Shown: positions 5,849 through 61,166 of the stretch, piece after piece
Position numbering within the stretch: the stretch's first letter is position 1
Layout: each line of letters opens with the position of its first letter
Assembly: GCF_023498005.1 (NCBI RefSeq)
Contig: NZ_CP097289.1
Location: forward strand, 3,968,001 to 4,032,000
DNA length: 64,000 nucleotides
Direction of reading: 5' to 3'
Source of the DNA: Streptomyces durmitorensis
Lineage (GTDB): Bacteria; Actinomycetota; Actinomycetes; Streptomycetales; Streptomycetaceae
Position numbers and translations under genes: made by a program
The notes under the pieces: model-generated
What the model was told of the DNA's origin: nothing
The model's database searches: none
What the model saw: only the letters and a program-made list of their open reading frames with translations

Positions 5849-6718
5849 GTGTCTCTTGGGATGATTTGCGCACTCGGTTCAGCGGTCTGCTTCGGCACGG
5901 CCTCCGTCTTCCAGGCCGTCGCCGCGCGCGCCACGGCGCCGGGGACGGGGTCCGGGGTCGACCCCGCGCTGCTGCTGCGCGCGGTGAAGCAGTGGCGGTA
6001 CGTCGTGGGGCTCGGGCTCGACGGGCTCGGGTTCCTGCTGCAGATCGTGGCGTTGCGCTCCATCCCGATCTATGCCGTCGGCGCGGCGCTCGCCGCGAGC
6101 CTCGCCGTCACGGCGGTGGTGGCCTCGCGGATGCTGCGGGTGCGGCTGAGCGGGGTGGAGTGGGCCGCCGTGGCGGTGGTGTGCGCGGGGCTCGCGATGC
6201 TGGGGCTCGCTTCGGGGGACGAAGGGGAGCGCGTCGGGTCTACGACTCTGCGGTACGTGATGCTTGGCGTGGCGGTGGGGGTGCTGGCCCTGGGGGCCGT
6301 GGCGGGGCGGTTGCCCGGCCGGGGGCGGGCGCTGGCCCTGGGGCTCGGGGCCGGGTTCGGGTTCGGGGTGGTGGAGGTGGCGGTGCGGCTGATCGACGAT
6401 GTCTCGCCGGGGGCCTTGGTGACCAATCCGGCTTCCTACGCCCTGCTGGTGGGCGGAGGCGCGGCGTTTCTGCTGCTCACGTCCGCGTTGCAGCGGGGGT
6501 CGGTGACGACCGCCACCGCGGGGATGGTGATCGGGGAGACGATCGGGCCCGCGGTGGTGGGGGTGGTGTGGCTGGGGGATCGGACCCGGGGCGGAATGGA
6601 GTGGGTCGCGGTGCTCGGGTTCGCGATTGCCGTGGTGGGGGCGCTGGCATTGGCGCGCTTCGGCGAGGCGCCGGCTCCTGCGGAGGAGGCGGCGGATTCC
6701 AGCCCGTCCGGCGTTTGA
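5849..6718 (+). CDS. DMT-superfamily (EamA-like) membrane transporter
   Basis: A 289-residue polytopic membrane protein with about nine or ten hydrophobic segments arranged as two EamA-like halves. The first half contains ALGSAVCFGTASVFQ and the pair AVGAALAASLAVTAVVASR. The second half ends with MVIGETIGPAVVGVVWLGDR, the usual final-helix motif of drug/metabolite exporters. The cargo cannot be predicted. GTG 5849 is chosen because the sequence upstream is not membrane-like and a -10 box sits just before it. The last residues (SSPSGV and stop) are encoded by the first unit of the 34-bp repeat array, so the repeat supplies the stop codon. Confidence 0.8.
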   Translation: MSLGMICALGSAVCFGTASVFQAVAARATAPGTGSGVDPALLLRAVKQWRYVVGLGLDGLGFLLQIVALRSIPIYAVGAALAASLAVTAVVASRMLRVRLSGVEWAAVAVVCAGLAMLGLASGDEGERVGSTTLRYVMLGVAVGVLALGAVAGRLPGRGRALALGLGAGFGFGVVEVAVRLIDDVSPGALVTNPASYALLVGGGAAFLLLTSALQRGSVTTATAGMVIGETIGPAVVGVVWLGDRTRGGMEWVAVLGFAIAVVGALALARFGEAPAPAEEAADSSPSGV

Positions 6719-7266
6719 GGAGACGGCGGATTCCAACCCACCCGGCATCCCCGTCCGGCGTTTGAGAAGGCGGCGGATTCCGGCCCGCCCGGCGCTTGAG
6801 GAGACGGCAGATTCCAACCCGCCCGGCATTTGAGGAGACGGCGGACTCCAACCCACCCGGCATCCCCGTCCGGCGTTTGAGGAGACGGCGGATTCCGGCC
6901 CGCCCGGCGCTTGAGGAGACGGCAGAATCCAGCCCACCCCGCACTTGTGAAGACAGCGGACTCCAACCCACCCCGCACTTGAGAAAACGGCAGAATCCAA
7001 CCCACCCGGCATCCCCGTCCGGCGTTTGAGGAGACGGCGGATTCCGGCCCGCCCGGCGCTTGAGGAGACGGCAGACTCCAACCCGCCCGGCATTTGAGGA
7101 GACGGCGGACTCCAACCCACCCGGCGCTTGAGGAGACGGCAGACTCCACCCCGCACTTGAAAAGACGGCAGACTCCAACCCACCCGGCGAATGAGAAGAC
7201 GGCGGACTCCAGCTCGCCCGGCATTTGAGGAGACGGCGGACTCCAGCCCGTCCGGCGTTTGAGGAC
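6691..7266. repeat. Array of sixteen ~34-bp intergenic repeats
   Basis: Sixteen tandem units begin GGCGGAYTCCARCCC and end GGCGYTTGAGGAGAC. Most are 34 bp; three (the 2nd, 5th and 9th) carry about 13 extra bases (CATCCCCGTCCGG). Blocks of units recur in order (5-6 resembles 9-10; 3-4 resembles 10-11), which points to growth by block duplication. The period is not a multiple of three, so all frames are cycled and the long minus-strand reading frames here are artefacts. The first unit overlaps the stop codon of the transporter gene; the last lies 48 bp from the end of the MocR gene. It fills the gap between two convergent genes. A role in termination or mRNA 3' structure is inference. Confidence 0.9.
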
Positions 7267-43817: not shown

Positions 43818-44864
43818 TCAGACGTTGGACGTCGCGTTGTTCGCCGTGTTGTAGGCCGTGTTGTACGTCGCGTTGTACGCCTGCTCGTACGTCGGCAGGT
43901 AGTCCGGGGTGACCGAGCCGGCCACGCCCTGGAGGCCCGAGACGGCGTTGCCCGCGAGGGACTGCGCGTCGGGGGCGACGGTGCCCGTGAGGTCCTGCGC
44001 GAACGGCGAGACCTGGCCGACGACGCCACCGGCGAACGGGTGGACGTCACCCGTAACGCCGTACGCGAGCTCGTCCGCGCTGCCACCGACGCCCTGCACG
44101 ACGGGCCGCACCTGGTCGGTGACGGTCTGCACGAGCGGCGTGACCGAGCCGACGACACCGCCCGCGAAGGGCTGCACGTCGTCGCCGACGACGCCCTGCG
44201 CGAACGGCGGGACCTCGCCGACGACACCGCCGGCGAACGGCGTCACATCTCCGACCACGCCCTGCGCCAGGTACGTGACGTCGTTGACCGCCTGCCCGGC
44301 GACCGGCACGACGCCGTCGACGGCGGTGGCGGCGACGGGCGGCAGCACGGCCGTGGCCGTCTCGTCGACGATCGGGGCGGCGGTCTTCGTGGTGGCCCGC
44401 GTCGCGTCCGTGGCCGTCTGCGTCGCCGTCCCCGGGGCCTTCGCCGCGGCGGCCTCGACCTCCGGGGCGAAGGCGGAGAGCGGGCCGAAGAGGTAGTCGA
44501 CGGAGTCTTCGGGGGTGGAGACGTCGGGGGTGTCGACGGCGGGGGTCTTGACGTCCGGGGCGTCGACGGCGGGGGCGGTGGCCTTGTGAGCGGTGGACTT
44601 CGCGTCCGTGACGGTGGACTTCGCGTCCGTGACGGTGGACTTCGCCTTGCCCTGGACGTCGGCGACGTCGGCGACGTCGGTGGCATCGCCGGCGTCTGCC
44701 ACGTCGCCGGTGACGTCAGCGACCGCGTCGGACGCGGACGCGTTGTCCGGCAGCGCCACGGAGTGCTGCGGCAGCTCGTCCGCGCTGGCCACGGCGGAAC
44801 CGAGCGCCCAGGCGCCCGTGACACCGGCGGCTATGACGATGGAACGACGGATGTTCTTGTTCAT
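43818..44864 (-). CDS. Secreted protein with PFA-x-GVVG repeats
   Basis: A 348-residue exported protein. A signal peptide (IVIAAGVTGAWALGSAVASA) precedes an Asp/Val/Ala-rich region with VADV/DATDVADVADV and STVTDAKSTVTDAKST repeats. The middle holds several ~12-residue repeats of pattern PFA-[GQ]-GVVG-x-V (PFAGGVVGEVP, PFAQGVVGDDVQ, PFAGGVVGSVT, PFAGGVVGQVS). The tail is rich in Tyr/Asn/Ala (YNATYNTAYNTANNATSNV). There is no cysteine, enzyme motif or sortase signal. It may be a spore- or aerial-surface protein like other Val/Gly-repeat exports; function is unknown. Confidence 0.75.
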   Translation of the reverse strand: MNKNIRRSIVIAAGVTGAWALGSAVASADELPQHSVALPDNASASDAVADVTGDVADAGDATDVADVADVQGKAKSTVTDAKSTVTDAKSTAHKATAPAVDAPDVKTPAVDTPDVSTPEDSVDYLFGPLSAFAPEVEAAAAKAPGTATQTATDATRATTKTAAPIVDETATAVLPPVAATAVDGVVPVAGQAVNDVTYLAQGVVGDVTPFAGGVVGEVPPFAQGVVGDDVQPFAGGVVGSVTPLVQTVTDQVRPVVQGVGGSADELAYGVTGDVHPFAGGVVGQVSPFAQDLTGTVAPDAQSLAGNAVSGLQGVAGSVTPDYLPTYEQAYNATYNTAYNTANNATSNV

Positions 44865-44976
44865 GCGTGCTTCAGATCCTTCGAACTCTGGCTGTGAATC
44901 CGACTCGGATACGTCCGGTCGGCGGGCAGACCTTTGCCACCCCCGCGCGGCAGGTCTTCGCGGGGAAAGGGCTGCC

Positions 44977-45966
44977 CTAGCCAGGGAATTCGGGAATGTC
45001 CCGGTGTCGTTCGCGGATCGGCGCGGCGGCCTGACCGGCCCCGGCACCCTGAAGAAGCCGCACCGGCGCACGGCTGTCGCACGACGCGGCACACGGATCG
45101 CCGTGCCGCGTCTGACTCCCGTCACCGGCCGACTGACCGCCCAGGGTCCGCGCCGGATCACCGGGAGCGGGCGCGGACGGGAACGGCTCGTGCCCGCTGC
45201 CGTGCGCGTGGTCCGAGGCGTCACCGCCGAACTCGGCGGCGCCGCGCGCCTGCTGACCAGCGGGATACGTGGCGCCGGTACCGACACCGGCACCGACACC
45301 GGCACCGGCACCGGTGCCGTACGACGACTCGCCCCGCGCCCCGGACGACTTCCGCGCCTCGTGCGCCCGAGCTCCCGCCCCGCCCCGACCGTCGCCAGGC
45401 TTGGCGGCGCTCTCGGGAGACTGGGGCTCGGCACCGACGCCGGCGTCCGCGTCATCGCCATGGCCCGCACCGGGACCAGGCAGCGGCAGCTCGGGCCTGT
45501 CGGGCGCCGCGGGCAGCACCCGCTGCGGCGAACCGCCGAGAACTCCGGTGACCCCGTCGGCAACCGGCCCCACCACGCCCCGCACGGCCCGCTCGGTCCG
45601 CTCGGTCCGCACCACGGGCTCGGCGGCGTCGGCCATCGGCTCGACCGCAGCGTCGCGCACCGCCTGCCGCCCGTGACGGACATCCTCGCGCGCGGTCTCC
45701 CGCACGGGCTCGGCCACCTGCTCACGCACGGGCTCGCCTACCTGCTCACGCACGGGCTCGGCCACCCGCTCACGCACGGGCGCGGTCACCTGTGCACGTT
45801 CCGGAGCCGACGGCGCTCCGTCCACCGCCTCCGCCCGCTCGCCACAGAGGAACCCCAGCGCGAGCAAACCGGCCAGCAGCACCACCACTTGCAGCGCACG
45901 CCGCCCGGCCACCGCACGCACCAGGCGCACAGCGGCATCAGGCAGAACGACTACTGCGGGAGTCAA
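44977..45966 (-). CDS. Exported protein with VRE-x-VAEP repeats, unknown function
   Basis: A 329-residue protein. TTG 45966 is the most likely start (LTPAVVVLPDAAVRLV, AGAGGA upstream is weak). A signal-like helix (ALQVVVLLAGLLALGFLCG) has a Cys that could be lipidated. Then come four ~8-residue repeats (PVRERVAEPVREQVGE, PVREQVAEPVRETARE; coded by 24-bp repeats), a Pro/Gly/Ala-rich body with a GAGAGVGAGVGTGA tract, and a tail with three cysteines. It lies 112 bp upstream of the 44864 start and may be co-transcribed with it. Not recognised in any family. Confidence 0.6.
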   Translation of the reverse strand: MTPAVVVLPDAAVRLVRAVAGRRALQVVVLLAGLLALGFLCGERAEAVDGAPSAPERAQVTAPVRERVAEPVREQVGEPVREQVAEPVRETAREDVRHGRQAVRDAAVEPMADAAEPVVRTERTERAVRGVVGPVADGVTGVLGGSPQRVLPAAPDRPELPLPGPGAGHGDDADAGVGAEPQSPESAAKPGDGRGGAGARAHEARKSSGARGESSYGTGAGAGVGAGVGTGATYPAGQQARGAAEFGGDASDHAHGSGHEPFPSAPAPGDPARTLGGQSAGDGSQTRHGDPCAASCDSRAPVRLLQGAGAGQAAAPIRERHRDIPEFPG

Positions 45967-46094: not shown

Positions 46095-47273
46095 TTACTG
46101 ATGCGTATTCATGTCCGGTATGGGCAGGGGCCGCTTCTCGATCGCCGCCGCCATCACCTCCGGGAAGAGGTCCGGGGTGCACGCGAAGGCCGGTGCGCCC
46201 AGCGCCGAGAGCGCCGCCGCGTGCTCTCGGTCGTACGCGGGCGTCCCCTCGTCGGAGAGCGCGAGCAGCGTCACGAACTGCACTCCGGACGCCTTCATCG
46301 CCGCGACCCGCTTCAGCATCTCGTTGCGTATGCCCCCTTCGTAGAGGTCACTGATGAGGACGACGATGGTGTCGGCGGGCCGGGTGATCTGCGACTGGCA
46401 GTACGCGAGCGCCCGGTTGATGTCGGTCCCGCCACCCAGCTGCGTACCGAACAGCACATCCACCGGGTCGTCGAGCTGATCGGTGAGGTCGACGACGTTC
46501 GTGTCGAAGACGACGAGCCGCGTGTTGAGCGACCGCATCGAGCCGAGCACGGCACCGAACACCGAGGCGTAGACGACGGACGCGGCCATCGAGCCCGACT
46601 GGTCGATGCAGAGGATGACCTCCTTCTTCACGGACTGCGACGCCCGCCCGTACCCGATGAGCCGCTCGGGCACGATCGTCTTGTACTCCGGCAGGTAGTT
46701 CTTGAGGTTGACCGCGATCGTGCGGTTCCAGTCGATGTCGTGGTGGCGCGGCCTGCTGACACGGGCGCTGCGGTCGAGCGCGCCCGTGAGGGTGGCACGG
46801 GTACGCGTGGCGAGCCGCTTCTCCAGGTCCTCCACGACCTTGCGCACGACGGCCCGCGCGGTCTCCTTGGTGGTCTCCGGCATGGCCTTGTTGAGGGAGA
46901 GCAGGGTCCCCACCAGATGCACGTCGGCCTCGACGGCCTCCAGCATCTCGGGCTCAAGGAGCAGCGTGGAGAGGCCGAGCCGCTCGATGGCGTCGCGCTG
47001 CATGACCTGGACGACGGACGAGGGGAAGTACGTCCGAATGTCCCCGAGCCAGCGCGACACGGACGGCGCGGACGCCCCGAGCCCCGCCGAACGCTCCCGC
47101 CCCCGGTCCTTCTTCCCCGCGTCCCCTCCCCCGTACAACGCACCGAGCGCCCCGTCCATCGCCGCGTCCCGCCCGACGAGCTCACACCCGGTCCCCTCGG
47201 CCGCACCCCCACCCAGCACAAGCCGCCACCTGCGCAGCCGCTCCCCCGCGGGATCCAACACTTCCTGCGTCAT
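46095..47273 (-). CDS. VWA-domain protein of the MoxR/DUF5682 cassette
   Basis: A 392-residue protein. The C-terminal half is a von Willebrand A domain with a complete metal site: D224-x-S-x-S in VILCIDQSGSM, the Thr in QLGGGTDINRAL, and the Asp in IVVLISDLYEGG. Such domains bind partners through Mg and often work with MoxR ATPases. The N-terminal half is helical, with WLGDIRTYFPSSVVQVMQRD, a segment found in cassette VWA proteins, and WNRTIAVNLKNYLPEYKTIV. Start overlaps the DUF5682 stop (TGATG). It is the last gene of the minus-strand arm. Confidence 0.88.
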   Translation of the reverse strand: MTQEVLDPAGERLRRWRLVLGGGAAEGTGCELVGRDAAMDGALGALYGGGDAGKKDRGRERSAGLGASAPSVSRWLGDIRTYFPSSVVQVMQRDAIERLGLSTLLLEPEMLEAVEADVHLVGTLLSLNKAMPETTKETARAVVRKVVEDLEKRLATRTRATLTGALDRSARVSRPRHHDIDWNRTIAVNLKNYLPEYKTIVPERLIGYGRASQSVKKEVILCIDQSGSMAASVVYASVFGAVLGSMRSLNTRLVVFDTNVVDLTDQLDDPVDVLFGTQLGGGTDINRALAYCQSQITRPADTIVVLISDLYEGGIRNEMLKRVAAMKASGVQFVTLLALSDEGTPAYDREHAAALSALGAPAFACTPDLFPEVMAAAIEKRPLPIPDMNTHQ

Positions 47274-49708
47274 CAGCCCACCTCCACAAGCTCGATACCG
47301 CCACCGACACCGAATCCATCGCCGCCACTGACTCCTGCCCCGGGCCCGGACGCGACCCCCAGCAACAGACTCAGCACCGGCAGAACCGCATCCGCCCGCT
47401 CACCGTCAAGTTCCGCCCCGAAGCCGGGTATCCCGCCGGTGACGGCCAGGCCACCACCGCCCGCCCCCGGACCGCGCCGCACCAGCTCACCCAGCGTCCG
47501 CCGCACCCCCGGTTCGTACGCCGAGAAGGTGCGCCGCAGGAGGGGCAGTACGTCGGTGAAGGCTCGGTCAGGGACCCCGCTCAGCCAGTCGTCGACGAGG
47601 CCGAGGAGCCGCTCGTCGTGCACGAGCAGCATGCCGCCCCCTGACCCACCGCCCACGAACCCCTCGATCCAGGCGGCTGCTTCGGCGGGCTCGGTCCCCC
47701 GGGACAGTGCGAGCCCCATGAACCGAGCGGCCTCGTCCTCGGCCAACTCCCCGCCGTCCATCAGGATCCGCACGCACCGCCCGCGCACCACCCCGGCCAC
47801 GCTGTCCCGCTCCCCCAGCACCCTCAACACGGAGTGCCACCGCCCCCGTACACCGGCAGCGCCGACCTTGGGCTCACTCGGGCGCGGGCTCCCCTCGCCC
47901 GCAGGATCAGCGTCCAACTCGCCCAGCAGGCCCACCGCCTGGTGCACCGCGTCCATGTGCCCCCGCATCTCGACCGCCGCGTCCTGGTCGAGCCCCGCGC
48001 ACGCCGGGGGCAGCCCGACGAACACCCGCTCCGCGAGCCCCAGAGCCACTTCGCCGAGCGCAGCCGTGTCCGTACCCCGCACATCCCCGTACCGAAGCGA
48101 CCGCACCAGCGCGGGCAGCGCCTGCGCCAGATGCCCGACGTCCGCATCCAGTGCCGCCCGGTCCGCCAGGACCCGCATCACCACCGGCAACGCGTCCGGC
48201 AGGTCGGCCAGCAGACACCGCTCGGCCAGCGCGGTGACGTCAGCCAGGGCGCCGGCCCCGATGGCATCGGACTCCGCGCGAGCTGTGGCCGCCGCGAGCA
48301 CGGTCGTCCCCCATACCCCCGCCTCCGCCACCCGCACCGACAGCTCCGGCTCCCACCGCAGCCGCCAGGTCTCCCGGAACGTACCCGTGCTCCCCCGCGA
48401 CGCGGCGGGCTCGCCCCAGCCGATACCCAGCAGCCGGAGGCGGTGCAGCAGCCTGCTGCGCGCCGCGTCCGCCTCCTTGCGCAGGTCGAGCTCCAACTCC
48501 CGCTCAAGCGCCTCGGGTTTGATCCGGAGCTTCCGCTGGAGCCGCGTGAGATCGCGCTGCAACGGCACGGCCGGGGCCGAGTCGGGAACCTCCCCGAGGA
48601 CGTCCCCGACGACGAGCTTGTCGTGCACGAGGGAGAGCGGCACGTCCGAGCCCTCGCACATCACCGCACGGACCGCGTCCGTCGTCTCGGTGAGCCCCGG
48701 CAGCGGACGCCCCCGCATCGCGGCGAGGGTGTCCGCGAGCCGTACCGCCTCGATGACATGCGCGGACGACACGATCCTGTCCTCGTCCCTGAACAGTCGC
48801 GCGACCTTCGTCAGCCAGCGCTCCACGGGCCGGTCGGGCGCGCTGAACAGATGCCCGTACCAACCGGGCGACGCGATTCCCGCGCCGTATCCACTGGCCC
48901 GCGAGAGGCGGCGGTGCGTCCAGGGCACCCAGGTCATGTCGACCTTCACCTTGGGCAGCCCCTTGAGCAGCGCCCGGTCGGCCGACAGGGTCACCTTCTG
49001 CCGCAGCGCGGGCACATGCCAGGCCCCGCACACGACCGCGACGTCGTCCGGACCGAACTCGCGCTGTGCCGCGCGGACTTGGATCCGCATATACGCCTCG
49101 CGCACCAGGTCACGGTCATGCCCACCGGTCCCGTACTCCTCGCGCAGCGCCCCCATGGCCTCACCCAGCGCGTCGAACGGCGCGAAGGCGTCCGCCCCGG
49201 CCCCCCGGTGCTCGACGACGTCCTCCCACCACCGCTCGGGATCGTCGTACCCTGCGGTCTCCGCGAGCACCGCGAGGGGATCGATCCGCACCGCGTCAGC
49301 GTCCACGCCCCCAGGAGTTGCGGCGTCCTCAGCCTCCTCCGTACCCTCCGCGCGCGCCAGCGAATGCGCCGCCGGAAGATCCATGAACCGCACCGGAACC
49401 CCGGCGCCCGCCGCCCACTTGATCGCGACCCACTCCGGCGAGAACTCGGCCAGCGGCCAGAACGCCGACCGGCCGGGCTCGTCCACCACGTGCGCGAGCA
49501 GCGCGACCGGCGGCCGCATCCCCTCGTCCGCCGCGAGCGCCACCAGCGCGTCGGCCTCCGGCGGCCCTTCGATCAGGACCACGCGCGGCGCGCCCTCCTC
49601 GAGTGCGGCCCGCACCGCACGCGCCGACCCCGGCCCGTGATGCCGCACCCCGAGCAGCAACGGCCCCTCGCCCGCTCGCGCCTCGCCCCCGCGCACCTCG
49701 TCGCTCAT
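47273..49708 (-). CDS. DUF5682 protein with a possible TraB/ChaN-like fold
   Basis: An 811-residue cytoplasmic protein. The N-terminus LLLGVRHHGPGSARAVRAAL, then VVLIEGPPEADALV, and later DDVAVVCGAWHVPAL (G228-H231) resemble the paired G-x-x-H and E-G segments of TraB/TIKI/ChaN/EreA-like proteins. Those include metal-dependent hydrolases, so an enzymatic role is possible but unproven. The long C-terminal part is helical, with repeats rich in Leu/Arg/Glu. It is coupled to the VWA gene and lies 131 bp downstream of the MoxR gene on the same strand. No substrate is known. Confidence 0.82.
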   Translation of the reverse strand: MSDEVRGGEARAGEGPLLLGVRHHGPGSARAVRAALEEGAPRVVLIEGPPEADALVALAADEGMRPPVALLAHVVDEPGRSAFWPLAEFSPEWVAIKWAAGAGVPVRFMDLPAAHSLARAEGTEEAEDAATPGGVDADAVRIDPLAVLAETAGYDDPERWWEDVVEHRGAGADAFAPFDALGEAMGALREEYGTGGHDRDLVREAYMRIQVRAAQREFGPDDVAVVCGAWHVPALRQKVTLSADRALLKGLPKVKVDMTWVPWTHRRLSRASGYGAGIASPGWYGHLFSAPDRPVERWLTKVARLFRDEDRIVSSAHVIEAVRLADTLAAMRGRPLPGLTETTDAVRAVMCEGSDVPLSLVHDKLVVGDVLGEVPDSAPAVPLQRDLTRLQRKLRIKPEALERELELDLRKEADAARSRLLHRLRLLGIGWGEPAASRGSTGTFRETWRLRWEPELSVRVAEAGVWGTTVLAAATARAESDAIGAGALADVTALAERCLLADLPDALPVVMRVLADRAALDADVGHLAQALPALVRSLRYGDVRGTDTAALGEVALGLAERVFVGLPPACAGLDQDAAVEMRGHMDAVHQAVGLLGELDADPAGEGSPRPSEPKVGAAGVRGRWHSVLRVLGERDSVAGVVRGRCVRILMDGGELAEDEAARFMGLALSRGTEPAEAAAWIEGFVGGGSGGGMLLVHDERLLGLVDDWLSGVPDRAFTDVLPLLRRTFSAYEPGVRRTLGELVRRGPGAGGGGLAVTGGIPGFGAELDGERADAVLPVLSLLLGVASGPGAGVSGGDGFGVGGGIELVEVG

Positions 49709-49839
49709 GTCCGCCCCCTCTCCGTCTCACGCCGTCTCGCGCCGTCTCACGCGAACCAGTCACCGTCACGCCCACAGCCACCGTCACGCCCACAACCCCG
49801 CTCAGACCCGGGCGGCCCACGCCACCCGCATCCGTCCCG

Positions 49840-51024
49840 TCACGCACTCACCTCACGGCACGCGCGGTAGAAGTCCTTCCAGCCGTCACGCTCGCGGACC
49901 ACCGCTTCCAAGTACTCCTGCCAGATCACCCGGTCCGCCGCCGGGTCACGGACCACCGCGCCGAGGATGCCCGCGGCGACATCGCCCGGCCGCAGCACGC
50001 CGTCCCCGAAGTGCGTGGCCAGCGCCAGGCCGTTGGTCACGACGGAGATCGCCTCGGCCGTCGAGAGCGTGCCGCTCGGCGACTTCACCTTCGTACGCCC
50101 GTCGGCCGTGACCCCGTCCCGCAGCTCGCGGAAGACCGTGACGACGCGGCGTATCTCGTCGATCCCCTCGGGCCCGGTCGGCAGGTCGAGCGAGCGCCCG
50201 ATCTGGTCGACGCGGCGCGAGACGATGTCGACCTCCGCGTCGGCGCTCTCCGGCAGCGGCAGGATCACCGTGTTGAAGCGGCGGCGCAGCGCGCTCGACA
50301 GGTCATTGACCCCGCGGTCGCGGTTGTTGGCCGTCGCGATCAGGTTGAAGCCGCGGACGGCCTGCACCTCCTGGCCCAACTCCGGTATCGGAAGGGTCTT
50401 TTCCGACAGGATCGTGATCAGCGTGTCCTGCACGTCGGCGGGGATGCGGGTCAGCTCCTCGACCCGCGCCGTCATGCCGTCGGACATGGCCCGCATGACA
50501 GGGCTGGGCACGAGCGCGTCGCGGCTGGGGCCGTGCGCGAGCAGCTGCGCGTAGTTCCAGCCGTACCGGATCGCCTCCTCCGGCGTCCCTGCCGTGCCCT
50601 GCACGAGCAGCGTCGAGTCTCCGCTGACGGCGGCCGCCAGATGCTCGGACACCCAGGTCTTCGCGGTGCCGGGCACGCCGAGCAGAAGCAGGGCGCGGTC
50701 CGTGGCGAGGGTGGTGACGGCGACCTCGACGATGCGGCGCGGCCCCACGTACTTCGGCGAGATCACCGTCCCGTCCGGCAGCGTGCCGCCGAGCAGATAC
50801 GTCGCGACCGCCCACGGCGAGAGCCGCCAGCGCTCGGGCCGCGGCCGGTCGTCCTGCGCGGCGAGCGCGGCCAGTTCGGCGGCGAAGGCGTGCTCGGCAT
50901 GCGGCCGCAGCACCTCCGCCTCCCCCGCGGGCGCGGCTGCGGACGCGGATACAGCGGATGCAGACGCGGGCTGGCCCTCGATCGTCGAGGTCATCGAGGT
51001 CGTCGAGCCGACGGACACAGTCAT
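49840..51024 (-). CDS. MoxR-type AAA+ ATPase
   Basis: A 394-residue AAA+ ATPase. Walker A GVPGTAKT is at 116-123, the Walker B-like segment is ARVEELTRIPADVQDTLI (acidic EE), sensor 1 is FNLIATANNRDRGVNDLSSA, and the Arg finger is in ALRRRFNTVILP. This matches the MoxR clade, whose members act as chaperones that load cofactors or remodel VWA partners. A Ser/Ala-rich head of about 35 residues is not conserved. ATG 51024 has GGAGGGGG upstream. First gene of the minus-strand arm; the VWA protein downstream is its likely partner. Confidence 0.92.
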   Translation of the reverse strand: MTVSVGSTTSMTSTIEGQPASASAVSASAAAPAGEAEVLRPHAEHAFAAELAALAAQDDRPRPERWRLSPWAVATYLLGGTLPDGTVISPKYVGPRRIVEVAVTTLATDRALLLLGVPGTAKTWVSEHLAAAVSGDSTLLVQGTAGTPEEAIRYGWNYAQLLAHGPSRDALVPSPVMRAMSDGMTARVEELTRIPADVQDTLITILSEKTLPIPELGQEVQAVRGFNLIATANNRDRGVNDLSSALRRRFNTVILPLPESADAEVDIVSRRVDQIGRSLDLPTGPEGIDEIRRVVTVFRELRDGVTADGRTKVKSPSGTLSTAEAISVVTNGLALATHFGDGVLRPGDVAAGILGAVVRDPAADRVIWQEYLEAVVRERDGWKDFYRACREVSA

Positions 51025-51089
51025 GGAGCGATCCCCCTCCAACTCGTCCGGACACCTCTGGCCCGGATGTGGTTCCAACCGTGCACCAC

Positions 51090-51160
51090 GCCACTGACAA
51101 TCGACCCGAGCACGCCTCTGACCTGCACAGACACCGAGTGCGGGATCGATTGTCAGTGGC
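51090..51160. promoter_or_regulatory. Perfect 15-bp inverted repeat in the divergent promoter of the cassette
   Basis: GCCACTGACAATCGA (51090-51104) and TCGATTGTCAGTGGC (51146-51160) are exact reverse complements separated by 41 bases. They lie in the 155-bp gap between the MoxR and SWIM genes and include TTGTCA, which resembles a -35 box, in each outward direction. A paired operator or two identical promoter halves are both plausible. A chance exact 15-bp match at this spacing is very unlikely. Confidence 0.75.
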
Positions 51161-51166
51161 GGGATC

Positions 51167-51172
51167 TACCTT
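51167..51172 (+). promoter_or_regulatory. Putative -10 for a leaderless SWIM mRNA
   Basis: TACCTT fits TANNNT and ends seven bases before ATG 51180, which has no ribosome site. The transcript would start at or near the ATG. Confidence 0.4.
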
Positions 51173-51179
51173 CGATGAC

Positions 51180-52565
51180 ATGACTCAGCAGGGGGTGCGC
51201 TGGACGGCGGATCAGGTCCTTGCCTTGGCACCTGACGCCCCGTCACGCAAGGCGGGAAGCAAACTCGGCGTCGCCGGCCCATGGTCGGCGGCAGGCAGTT
51301 CGAGCGAGGGGACGGTGTGGGGACTGTGCAAGGGAAGTGGCAGCAAGCCGTATCAGACAGTTGTCGACATCGCGGACATCACCGGCGCGGCAGGCCCGGC
51401 GTACAAATGCAGTTGTCCGAGCCGCAAGTTCCCGTGCAAGCACGCGCTCGGGCTGCTGCTGCTCTGGGCGGCGGATGGCGGGGCGCCATCCGGCTCGGCG
51501 CCGGAAGCGGAGCCGCCGGACTGGGCGGCGGAGTGGCTTGCGGGGCGCCGCAAGAGAGCGGAGACGAAGCGGGCCTCGGACGCCGCGCCGGACTCGTCAC
51601 CCGCTGACCCCGAGGCCGCGCGCCGCAGGGCGGAGCGGCGGGCCGAGCGGGTCACGGCAGGAGTGACGGAGCTGGAGCGGCGCCTCTCCGATCTGCTGCG
51701 CGGCGGCATAGCCTCCGCCGAGCAGATGGGGTACGGGCTGTGGGAGGAGACGGCGGCCCGCATGGTCGACGCCCAGGCACCCGGACTTGCCGCGCGCGTA
51801 AGGGAGTTGGGTGCCATTCCCTCCTCCGGTCCCGGCTGGCCCGTGCGGATGCTGGAGGAGTGCGCGCTCCTCCACCTCCTCGACCAGGGCTGGCTGCACC
51901 GCGGGCAGTTGCCGGAGGCCCTGGCTGCCACGGTCCGCTCCCGCACGGGCCTGCCCACGCCGGCGGAGGGTCCGCCGGTGCGGGACCACTGGCTGGTGCT
52001 CGCGCAGTACGACACGGCAGACAGCAAGCTCACCACCCGCCGGATATGGCTGCACGGCGCGGAGTCCGGCCGGACGGCCCTGCTCCTGTCGTACGGAGCC
52101 GCGGGCCGCGCACCCGCGCTCGCGCTGCCGGTCGGCCTCGCGCTGGACGCCGAGCTGACCGCGTACCCGGGCGCCGGGCAGCTGAGGGCCGACCTGGGCG
52201 AACAGTTCAGCGCCCCCGCGCCGACGGCGGCCCGTCCACCGGGCGTACGGACGGAACAGGCCGCGCACAGCTACGGCGAAGTGCTGCGGGACGACCCCTG
52301 GCTGGATTCCTGGCCGGTGACACTGAGCGAAGTGATACCGACCCCGTGCCCCGGCCCCTCCTCCGAAGGCTGGCAACTGGCGGACGCGAAAGGCGACATG
52401 GCGCTGCCCATCACGCCTTCCGCGGCGTCCCGTGCGGGGCTGTGGCGGCTGGTGGCACTCTCCGGAGGCGCTCCGGTGACGGTCTTCGGCGAGTGTGGCC
52501 ACGAGGGCTTCATCCCTCTGACGGCCTGGCCGTGCGGAGCGGGAGAGGCGGTCGCCCTGTGCTGA
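51180..52565 (+). CDS. SWIM zinc-finger protein
   Basis: A 461-residue protein with a SWIM zinc-binding motif C77-x-C79-x6-C86-x-H88 (KCSCPSRKFPCKHALG). SWIM domains bind nucleic acid or proteins. The N-terminus GVRWTADQVLALAPDAPSRK is a conserved start of cassette SWIM proteins. A charged helical linker (residues 115-165) and a C-terminal region rich in Trp/Leu (GLWRLVALSGGAPVTVFGEC) follow. It is divergent from MoxR and lies 284 bp upstream of the DUF5691 gene. In related cassettes the SWIM gene precedes DUF5691. Confidence 0.88.
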   Translation: MTQQGVRWTADQVLALAPDAPSRKAGSKLGVAGPWSAAGSSSEGTVWGLCKGSGSKPYQTVVDIADITGAAGPAYKCSCPSRKFPCKHALGLLLLWAADGGAPSGSAPEAEPPDWAAEWLAGRRKRAETKRASDAAPDSSPADPEAARRRAERRAERVTAGVTELERRLSDLLRGGIASAEQMGYGLWEETAARMVDAQAPGLAARVRELGAIPSSGPGWPVRMLEECALLHLLDQGWLHRGQLPEALAATVRSRTGLPTPAEGPPVRDHWLVLAQYDTADSKLTTRRIWLHGAESGRTALLLSYGAAGRAPALALPVGLALDAELTAYPGAGQLRADLGEQFSAPAPTAARPPGVRTEQAAHSYGEVLRDDPWLDSWPVTLSEVIPTPCPGPSSEGWQLADAKGDMALPITPSAASRAGLWRLVALSGGAPVTVFGECGHEGFIPLTAWPCGAGEAVALC

Positions 52566-52667
52566 CCGCCACGCCTCACCACCGTCACACCGATGCGTAC
52601 TCCTAGAGCGCTGCGGCGTTCGAGGAGGAGCGCTGGGTTCGCGCAACGCACCGCAGGGCCATCCGTC

Positions 52668-52762
52668 GCTCCACCGCAGCACCGCTCCACCGCTCCACCG
52701 CTCCACCGCAGCACCGCAGCACCGCAGCACCGCGGCACCGCGGCACCGCGGCACCGCGGCGG
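52668..52762. repeat. 8-bp tandem repeat array
   Basis: Eleven and a part units of GC[T/A/G][C/G]CACC: GCTCCACC, GCAGCACC, three GCTCCACC, three GCAGCACC, three GCGGCACC, then a partial unit. The stepwise variants show local copying. It lies between the SWIM and DUF5691 genes and could vary in copy number. It codes for nothing credible. Confidence 0.85.
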
Positions 52763-52849
52763 CAGATCCAAACAGATCCGGTAGATCCGGCGTCCAAGAC
52801 GGCAACTCCAAACGAAAGACCGAGTGATCCGTCCGAGAGAGGAGTCCAC

Positions 52850-54514
52850 ATGACCGGCATCACCGCACTCACCGAAGCGACCGTCATCCCCTGGGAAGAC
52901 CTGGTCACCGCCGCGCTCCTCGGCACCGACCGCCGCACGCCCCCCGTACGAACCCAGGACAAGGACGCACCGACCGCTCTTCTGGACGCGGCAGCCGTGC
53001 AGACCGTCCGGCGCAGAGCCGGGCTTCGTCCCGCACCCGCCGCGACAGCTCCCGAGCCCGCGGCGGACGACCCCAGGCCCCTGGTGCCGCCAGCTGCACG
53101 GCGCAGGCTCGCCACGCTGCTCACCGACCACCCCGGCGCGGCAAGCGGTGGACGCCGGGGCGCGGTGCCCGACCTGATGGAACTGCTGCCCCAGTGGCTG
53201 GCGTTGGCCAACGACCGCGGCTTCGCTGCGCCGCCCGAGCTGATTCCGGCCCTCCTGAACGCGGCGCGCGGGCGCACGGACCTCCGGCCGCAGGCGCTCA
53301 CCTTCGCGGGCCCGCGGGCCCTGTGGCTCGCGCGGCTCAACCCGGACTGGAAGTTCGCGCTCCGCTCCACTCCGGGCGGTGGGGTGTCGCTGCCCGCCCC
53401 CGAGGAGACGGCACTGGTCCAACAGCTCTGGGAGGAAGGCCTGTTCGCCGAGCGCGTCGCCCTGCTCGGCGCGGTGCGGGCGCATGAACCCGCCGCCGCG
53501 CGGGAGCTGCTCGCCTCCACCTGGAGCACGGAGCGAGCGGAGGACCGCCTGATGTTCCTCGACTCCTTGCGCACCCAACTGTGCGACGCGGACGAGCCGT
53601 TCCTGGAGCAGGCCCTCACCGACCGCAGCCGCAACGTCCGCGCGACGGCGGCCGAGCTCCTCTCCGCACTGCCCTCATCCGCCCTCGCCGCGCGGATGGC
53701 GGCCCGCGCCGCCTCGTGCGTGGCCATCGACCACGCCCAGGGCACGAAGAGCACGCCGACGCTCACGGTCGAGGCGCCGCACGAGTGCGACGCGGGCATG
53801 GAGCGCGACGGCGTCGTTCCGAAGCCTCCCGCAGGTCGGGGCGAACGCAGCTGGTGGCTAGCCCAGTTGGTGGAGGCGGCACCGCTCGGAACCTGGCCGG
53901 AGCGGCTCGGCGGCCGGACCCCCGCGGAGATCGTGGCGCTGCCCGTGGCCGACGACTGGCAGAGCGAGCTGCACGCCGCGTGGTGCCGCGCGGCGGTGCG
54001 GCAGCGCGACGCCGTCTGGTCCCGGGCGCTGCTCGGAGCTCCCTCGTCCCCCGATGCGGCGGGCCCCGGAGCGGCGTCGCTCGCCGAGCGCGCGAAGCTC
54101 CTCGCCGCGTTGCCGGCCGTTGAGCGGGCCGACTGGGTCGCGGGATTCATCGGGACGCACGGCCTCTCGGAGGCGTTCCAGCTGCTCGGCGTGTGCGCGC
54201 TGCCCTGGTCGGAACCGCTGGGCCGTGCGGTGGTGGACGCGCTGAACATCGCGCGTGACGCCGGGAGTTACCCCTGGAGCTTCAGCGGGGTGATGGGTCT
54301 GGCGGAGCGCTGCCTCGACCCTGCGGAGGCGGTCCGTCTCGACGTACTGACCGCGATACCGGACGAGCCGGAGGACGCTTCCCCCGGCGCGGGCGGCTAC
54401 TGGTCGGAGGCCTTCCAGCGCCTGGTCAGTACGTTGCGTCTACGCGCGGCGATGCGGGCGGAGCTGGGCGCGGCGCCGGAAGATCCGGGGGTGCCGTCAT
54501 GTCAGGCAACTTAG
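52850..54514 (+). CDS. DUF5691 protein
   Basis: A 554-residue cytoplasmic protein. The start ATVIPWEDLVTAALLGTDRR and the segments VPDLMELLPQWLALANDRGF, WLARLNPDWKFALRS and WEEGLFAERVALLGAVRAHE are family hallmarks. The middle has helical repeats like HEAT (EDRLMFLDSLRTQLCDADEP, ALTDRSRNVRATAAELLSAL). A Trp-rich segment QLVEAAPLGTWPERLGG follows. This suggests a scaffold or adaptor. GGAG lies before the ATG. It is the second gene of the plus-strand arm of the cassette. Confidence 0.85.
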   Translation: MTGITALTEATVIPWEDLVTAALLGTDRRTPPVRTQDKDAPTALLDAAAVQTVRRRAGLRPAPAATAPEPAADDPRPLVPPAARRRLATLLTDHPGAASGGRRGAVPDLMELLPQWLALANDRGFAAPPELIPALLNAARGRTDLRPQALTFAGPRALWLARLNPDWKFALRSTPGGGVSLPAPEETALVQQLWEEGLFAERVALLGAVRAHEPAAARELLASTWSTERAEDRLMFLDSLRTQLCDADEPFLEQALTDRSRNVRATAAELLSALPSSALAARMAARAASCVAIDHAQGTKSTPTLTVEAPHECDAGMERDGVVPKPPAGRGERSWWLAQLVEAAPLGTWPERLGGRTPAEIVALPVADDWQSELHAAWCRAAVRQRDAVWSRALLGAPSSPDAAGPGAASLAERAKLLAALPAVERADWVAGFIGTHGLSEAFQLLGVCALPWSEPLGRAVVDALNIARDAGSYPWSFSGVMGLAERCLDPAEAVRLDVLTAIPDEPEDASPGAGGYWSEAFQRLVSTLRLRAAMRAELGAAPEDPGVPSCQAT

Positions 54515-61000: not shown

Positions 61001-61166
61001 CGCCTCCCGAGTCTAGGCGGCCCCACTGACAACCCGCCCCGGGTTCCGGCCACGTCACATGCCTACGCCCCGAGCGCGCATGGTCACGCTCCGCCATGGC
61101 ACGGCGTGCCCGCGTCAAGAGCTTCGTAAAGTAACGAAAATGTATCGGGCATATCGAACATCAACC

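Follow-up and report, generated by a model that had tools for sequence, protein, structure and literature searches.

A conserved five-gene MoxR–DUF5682–VWA–SWIM–DUF5691 module of Streptomyces with putative DNA-damage promoters

Introduction

What is the role of a cluster of genes in Streptomyces durmitorensis that encodes a MoxR ATPase, a VWA protein, a SWIM zinc-finger protein, and proteins of the families DUF5682 and DUF5691? The cluster lies in a 64,000-nucleotide stretch of DNA (positions 3,968,001 to 4,032,000 of NZ_CP097289.1), which is a piece of the organism's 9.86-Mb genome (G000); we call this whole stretch the window, and positions below refer to it unless noted. An earlier note on the window had suggested an undescribed system, perhaps for defence. 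We propose instead that the five genes are one form, type I, of a MoxR–DUF5682–VWA–SWIM module, and that in Streptomyces this module probably belongs to a DNA-damage regulon. Since a DNA-damage motif is found in both of its promoters, the module seems to serve the DNA-damage response rather than to be an anti-phage system.

The five genes are:
46095..47273, minus strand: VWA_CoxE protein, homologue of YehP (Pfam, E = 4e-60; the metal ion-dependent adhesion site (MIDAS) motif is present)
47273..49708, minus strand: DUF5682 protein, homologue of YehM (Pfam, E = 3e-302)
49840..51024, minus strand: MoxR AAA+ ATPase, homologue of YehL (Pfam AAA_5, E = 2e-36)
51180..52565, plus strand: SWIM zinc-finger protein (Pfam, E = 6.5e-6, scanned from 51147)
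52850..54514, plus strand: DUF5691 protein, partner of the SWIM protein (Pfam, E = 1e-175)

Results

The interval between the MoxR and SWIM genes contains a 19-nucleotide inverted repeat (51089–51107 and 51143–51161, 95% complementary) whose arms are 35 nucleotides apart. Each arm holds TTGTCAGTGGC, oriented toward its own gene, within a 23-nucleotide element:
51078..51100, minus strand: RecA-NDp/PafBC-like element of the MoxR arm, TTGTCAGTGGC-N6-CACGGT
51150..51172, plus strand: RecA-NDp/PafBC-like element of the SWIM arm, TTGTCAGTGGC-N6-TACCTT

The consensus for RecA-NDp promoters, which is said to go back to Gamulin in 2004, is reportedly TTGTCAGTGGC-N6-TAGggT. The SWIM-arm element, whose first base is 30 bp ahead of the SWIM start, matches TTGTCAGTG-N8-TAnnnT exactly (the strict form below). 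The earlier note had placed the five genes around one promoter region; the interval is indeed shared, but it holds two near-identical divergent elements rather than one. As for the MoxR start, it is likely the ATG at 51024, within a listed frame that begins with TTG.

Both elements are conserved. We compared the best 80 of 564 confirmed DUF5682 matches in named genomes (78 from Streptomyces, one from Actinacidiphila, and one from Streptantibioticus), which we term the Streptomycetaceae loci. Motifs were counted in 78 of these, as L043 and L050 have no MoxR. TTGTCAGTG was kept in the MoxR arm in 77 of the 78 loci and the strict full element was present in the SWIM arm in 72; no further TTGTCAGTG was counted. 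PafBC acts via RecA-NDp promoters, and the motif extends to other Actinobacteria (PMC6789036, PMC8223512). The motif in the module's promoters appears to be this RecA-NDp element, known from a response to DNA damage that does not depend on LexA, which would place the module under PafBC.

We also considered control by LexA and rejected it: exact SOS-type patterns had no matches in the 24 regions scanned upstream of first genes (in E. coli this was the stretch ahead of yehL, and several regions were placed by the start of a frame rather than by a mapped start). Similarly, GAAC-N4-GTTC was not found in the window's MoxR–SWIM interval. A loose pattern for the Deinococcus palindrome had one match, in L142.

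Across the S. durmitorensis genome there are 30 strict sites (loci L152–L181), while a reversed control gave none. Each site was assigned to the best frame by third-position G+C content with a start within about 380 bp. Eighteen of the 30 sites precede genes for repair, replication, or the supply of deoxythymidine monophosphate, namely a DinG/YoaA-like protein, RecA, ThyX, a UvrD-like helicase, PcrA, RadA, RpsF followed by an SSB-like frame (read from its translation), DnaX, an AlkZ-like protein, DnaE, O6-methylguanine methyltransferase, UvrB, a UvrA-type protein, a RecD2-HHH protein, a PDDEXK_1 nuclease, a DEAD-box helicase, RarA/MgsA, and uracil-DNA glycosylase. (The count is 15 if ThyX, the DEAD-box helicase, and the PDDEXK nuclease are set aside.) One more site is that of the module's SWIM gene. 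The pcrA site is in the window itself (61010–61032, minus strand); it is strict, with TTGTCAGTGGC in a variant form, and has its first base 32 bp ahead of where pcrA starts. The genes with strict sites but no assigned function include those at L152 (VWA-like, by a DCSGSM motif), L153, L169, L178, and L180 (173 amino acids).

We consider the 30 sites to be a candidate PafBC regulon for a genome of the Streptomyces type. The module would have in common with the PafBC/RecA-NDp regulon its promoter element and the genes that carry this element elsewhere in the genome (recA, uvrA, uvrB, radA, and pcrA). The genome also has a tandem pair of WYL genes (at 7570355 and 7571311 of the genome) whose arrangement would fit PafB and PafC. 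In Mycobacterium smegmatis without pafBC, two MoxR proteins were lowered 1.6–1.7-fold (PMC5656591). In the accessible literature, we did not find the module named as a member of the PafBC regulon.

The five genes are inherited together as a unit. We drew an even sample of 246 genomes of Actinomycetota, in which DUF5682 was present in 21 and DUF5691 (above its cut-off) in 18, and all 18 are among the 21 (Fisher p = 1.5e-24, or 3.9e-14 without nine genomes from the same genus). DUF5691 matches below the cut-off, in G068, G166, and G197, were excluded from the count. In the 18 genomes, the two genes are on the same contig and 1.2–3.3 kb apart. Of the three genomes with DUF5682 only, two have other types of the module (G140, locus L119; G212, locus L118) and in the third (G244) the gene is on a 4.4-kb contig. 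Among 21 close relatives (including S. durmitorensis itself), DUF5682 was found in 17 and DUF5691 in 18. All five families were found in 65 of the 80 Streptomycetaceae loci, and each of the 65 is divergent as in the window; the remaining 15 are on short contigs or have broken frames. The slot is fixed as well: in 60 of the 61 loci of at least 20 kb, a gene for a B12-binding protein flanks the DUF5691 side and sucC flanks the VWA side.

The earlier note's view of a tight five-gene unit with intact ATPase and VWA motifs is borne out, as is the co-occurrence of families that it proposed looking for. The MoxR translation contains GVPGTAKT and VEELTR, the VWA translation carries DQSGS...GGGTD...SDLYEG, and CSCPSRKFPCKH is present in the SWIM translation. 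The pattern C[ST]CPSRK[FL]PCKH was found in all eight type I SWIM proteins that we compared. The stop codon of the DUF5682 gene overlaps the start codon of the VWA gene (ATGA). Between the SWIM and DUF5691 genes (52672–52757) lies a GC-rich 8-bp tandem repeat, CACCGCAG, in 10.8 copies.

The two-arm divergent layout of Streptomyces is probably derived. Three loci of the same order (L015, L016, and L030) have a collinear SWIM–DUF5691–MoxR–DUF5682–VWA arrangement on one strand, likewise flanked by the B12 gene and sucC, and five actinobacterial loci (L114, L115, L116, L117, and L126) are collinear at other sites, with DUF5691 matches that are mostly weak. The annotation of Deinococcus taeanensis shows the same collinear order on one strand, plus one small extra gene, and in the Rhizobium annotation the five genes are collinear on one strand. 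In Methylosinus, the order is kept through DUF5682, followed by a short VWA match but no VWA row. It is only the SWIM–DUF5691 block that is reversed in Streptomyces, as an in-place inversion would give.

The module also has a relative in Escherichia coli, yehL-yehM-yehP-yehQ, where YehL is the MoxR ATPase, YehM is the DUF5682 protein, YehP is the VWA_CoxE protein, and YehQ is a SWIM protein. By BLASTP, the window's MoxR is 39% identical to YehL over 339 aligned columns (E = 2e-71), its DUF5682 protein is 27% identical to YehM (E = 1e-37), and its VWA protein is 37% identical to YehP (E = 2e-69); MoxR, DUF5682, and VWA are encoded in the same order. The SWIM family PF04434 is in both the window protein and YehQ, but beyond the finger there is no significant BLASTP match, and YehQ forms a separate SWIM branch with two CxC..CxH motifs. 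As yehLMPQ is homologous, this kind of module is partly known. The E. coli operon adjoins yehI (DUF4132), upstream of yehL, where the window's module has DUF5691, which makes the latter a variant (type I) and not the same type as yehLMPQ. An hhalign probability of 0.2 out of 100 led us to drop the idea that DUF5691 is a reduced form of DUF4132. yehM is present in 5284 of 5426 E. coli genomes, with a median of one place each. One E. coli record labelled as a plasmid (L150, CP137936.1) has the yehI-btsS-mlrA stretch, which is chromosomal in K-12.

The other types differ in their partners. (Pfam was run on the neighbours in L017, L023, L026, L028, L112, L118, L119, L121, L122, and L123.) Type II has DUF4132 beside or near MoxR–DUF5682–VWA, in Iodobacter, Allorhizobium, and the actinobacterial loci L023, L121 (with WGR), and L119. 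Type C comprises second copies in Streptomyces and others, with a fusion of DUF5682 and VWA (identified by Pfam in L017); a protein with C[ST]CLLAPxCLH is found in 5 of the 11 type C loci. Type D (L026–L028, L122, and L123) has VWA, MoxR, and a diverged DUF5682, and had no match to the SWIM pattern. Together, these modules (MoxR–DUF5682–VWA–SWIM) span at least four phyla. In trees of MoxR, DUF5682, and VWA from 31 loci, types II, C, and D group together, apart from type I. The distances for the three proteins are correlated (0.87–0.94), but kinship of the sequences inflates such correlations, so we count them only towards co-inheritance. Besides the fusion in L017, the SWIM protein and DUF5691 are a single protein in Hymenobacter (L143), and in L112, DUF5691 is fused with the body of the SWIM protein (the finger was not matched). 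These fusions point to contacts between DUF5682 and VWA and between the SWIM protein and DUF5691.

The RecA-NDp element recurs in some units of the other types. Where it is present (allowing up to one mismatch), its distance from the MoxR stop is nearly constant: –7.14 to –7.28 kb in 5 of the 11 type C loci (two with one mismatch) and –4.54 to –4.68 kb in 4 of the 5 type D loci (one with a mismatch). L018 and L022 do not extend far enough to be judged, and L020 is borderline. Of the five type II loci, one has the element and one (L119) is too short.

Upstream of the type C MoxR is a family of proteins of about 1600 amino acids (L017 2572–7473, L118 11755–16509, and L149 2720–7642; 37–52% identical); the two of these three that were scanned had no Pfam match. 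In type D, a conserved frame is upstream of VWA, near the RecA-NDp site (L026 13251–15527, minus strand; L122 3569–5602; L123 12863–14344, minus strand), and a TerD gene adjoins L123.

Pairs of a MoxR AAA+ protein and a VWA partner are also known from RavA-ViaA and CoxD-CoxE, and the VWA domain here is of the CoxE type. To our knowledge, those pairs have no DUF5682, SWIM, or DUF5691 partner. RavA and CoxD are placed in subfamilies of MoxR other than YehL's, which is named as a subfamily of its own (PMC3893208). These pairs raise the alternative that the module is a maturation chaperone, in which MoxR and VWA (like CoxD/CoxE or NorQ) would activate one enzyme, or insert a metal or cofactor into it, perhaps an iron-sulfur repair helicase, with DUF5682 and SWIM as accessories. 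Pfam's assignment of the VWA to CoxE is consistent with this, and the characterised MoxR proteins mature dedicated complexes (PMC3893208). However, we saw no recurrent client gene: across the lineages examined the neighbours vary while the core is constant. We consider this alternative unlikely. Our literature searches found no published role for the YehL branch in the accessible texts, and no paper naming DUF5682 or DUF5691.

Some experimental data are available from Streptomyces coelicolor. SCO4804 (815 amino acids, encoded between sco4803 and sco4805; PMC8120823) is, by its size and position, the apparent orthologue of the window's DUF5682 protein, and as far as the accessible text tells, the locus and gene order of sco4803-sco4805 are the same as here. 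That text calls the three products hypothetical and does not name MoxR, VWA, SWIM, or the promoter element. When TopA was depleted, sco4804 and adjacent genes were up about 8-fold, which a DNA-damage promoter on the module could explain. With a Tn5 insertion in sco4804, about 70% of the topA transcript and about 50% of the TopA protein remained, and the gyrB transcript was lowered too; overproduction of SCO4804 briefly raised the topA and gyrB transcripts (PMC8120823). As the insertion was polar on sco4805, the VWA protein may also be responsible for the phenotype.

These effects led the authors to propose that SCO4804 is a regulator of supercoiling homeostasis. If DUF5682 mainly sets the expression of topA and gyrB, then the damage element would merely reflect topological stress. 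But SCO4804 bound DNA only non-specifically, no contact with TopA was found, and plasmid supercoiling was unchanged (PMC8120823). Also, DUF5682 is partnered by an AAA+ ATPase and a VWA protein. We think that regulation of supercoiling is quite improbable as the main function.

The earlier note's suggestion that DUF5682 is an enzyme fits its conserved residues. H23, H24, E47, E92, D110, R203, E204, G228, and H231 are invariant in 31 of 31 loci, and seven of these nine are His, Glu, or Asp, so DUF5682 looks like an enzyme. The predicted structure (AF2, mean predicted local distance difference test score 81.9) has an alpha/beta N-terminal domain followed by a mostly helical C-terminal half. The TraB/TIKI/Ere-like hydrolases have two GxxH-type motifs and a conserved Glu; DUF5682 has GVRHH, E47, and GAWH, with H23, H24, E47, G228, and H231 among the invariant residues. 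The first Gly of this motif set is Pro in 55 of 75 alignment rows. Comparison of profiles with hhalign gave probabilities of 0.1 (Ere) and 0.9 (YbaP), where 100 is the maximum, and only single motifs align. Foldseek's list for DUF5682 was mostly helical-repeat chains. DUF5682 profiles had three chance matches to elastase among PDB sequences (E = 0.85–0.98), and another search had none up to E = 10; YbaP and L140 likewise had only chance matches in the PDB. TraB and ChaN were found in 1 and 0 of 100 in-phylum genomes, which is too few for comparison sets.

As for defence, MoxR-vWA cores are found in proposed conflict systems, namely the vWA-MoxR-VMAP ternary systems (Kaur 2020, PMC7159879), and two plasmid copies of the module are near toxin-antitoxin or restriction genes (9 of the 30 plasmid matches listed, from 32 records, were examined; the Fusobacterium record, L146, carries no annotation). 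However, none of the five proteins matched PADLOC-DB 2.0.0 at E = 0.01, MoxR scored 22.1 bits against the bpMoxR profile (the cut-off is 27), and the five proteins contain no VMAP, iSTAND, propeller, or effector family from Pfam at E = 0.001. A relative of MoxR was found in just 1 of 50,697 phage records (E = 1e-5). Furthermore, the genomic slot is fixed, and yehM is nearly universal in E. coli. The PADLOC result and the core synteny led us to reject defence as the main explanation. Given the damage element as well, the conflict role that the earlier note raised is not supported, and an anti-phage system similar to the ternary systems is very improbable. The note's description of the module as undescribed was half right: E. 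coli yehLMPQ is of the same kind and there is a study of sco4804 (PMC8120823).

Around the module, sucCD is on one side and the gene for a B12-binding mutase subunit (its B12 domain identified by Pfam) is on the other, followed by a frame similar to M23 peptidases and then pcrA; sucCD and the M23-like frame were assigned by reading their translations. Between the module and sucCD is a frame (43818–45725, minus strand) whose C-terminal part is rich in repeats similar to GGVVGDVTPFA. Elsewhere in the window (6683–7265) there is an array of repeats of about 34 bp, CCCGCCCGGCGTTTGAGGAGACGGCGGACTCCAA.

Discussion

We propose that the module is most likely an AAA+ remodelling machine inducible by DNA damage, in which DUF5682 would be a hydrolase-like subunit; we infer the control by PafBC, the hexamer, the hydrolysis, the targeting, and the client. 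Single-stranded DNA or damage would activate PafBC, so that RNA polymerase uses both divergent TTGTCAGTG promoters. MoxR proteins, some of them with VWA partners, are chaperone-like remodellers (PMC3893208), and here a MoxR hexamer and its VWA partner would remodel or dismantle a protein complex on stressed DNA. As the companion of VWA, to which it is fused in a paralogous type, DUF5682 would be the substrate-processing and probably hydrolytic subunit, and SWIM–DUF5691 would direct the machine to its target. We favour topoisomerases or other protein-DNA complexes as clients because of the topA and gyrB data.

Several observations weigh against this proposal. The –10 half of the MoxR arm is CA (CAnnnT) instead of TA, and 11 of the 30 strict sites precede other genes or genes that we could not identify. 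Three type C loci with enough sequence (L019, L029, and L118) have no site, nor do 3 of the 5 type II loci. Outside the Streptomycetaceae, just 2 of 10 actinobacterial type I loci have the element, each with one mismatch, and no full element turned up in the loci from E. coli, Rhizobium, Methylosinus, Deinococcus, Hymenobacter, Iodobacter, or Allorhizobium. An initial search by others suggested that the PafBC motif of M. smegmatis has not been kept in Streptomyces venezuelae (PMC9380542). In the accessible text of PMC8120823 we found no damage phenotype for the sco4804 transposon mutant, which is the polar insertion described above, and in the accessible literature no published damage induction of the module's genes. 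The genome G001 (79% complete) has DUF5691 without DUF5682. Finally, the case for hydrolysis by DUF5682 comes from conserved residues and a middling fold match, without a profile match.

A more specific scenario is that the module is a bacterial counterpart of the eukaryotic machines of the p97/SPRTN type, damage-inducible, at work across at least four phyla and, in Streptomyces, part of a putative PafBC-type regulon. MoxR and VWA would extract or unfold proteins trapped on DNA (stalled topoisomerases or crosslinks) and pass them to DUF5682, acting as a metallo-hydrolase similar to TraB/TIKI, while the SWIM protein would find the site on the DNA. This is speculative and, as a whole, improbable.

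Whether Streptomyces have a damage response that is independent of RecA/LexA (of the PafBC type) is a question that the accessible part of PMC9380542 leaves open, and the 30 strict sites bear on it. And the DNA-damage element on these relatives of YehL suggests a testable role for that branch of the MoxR ATPases.

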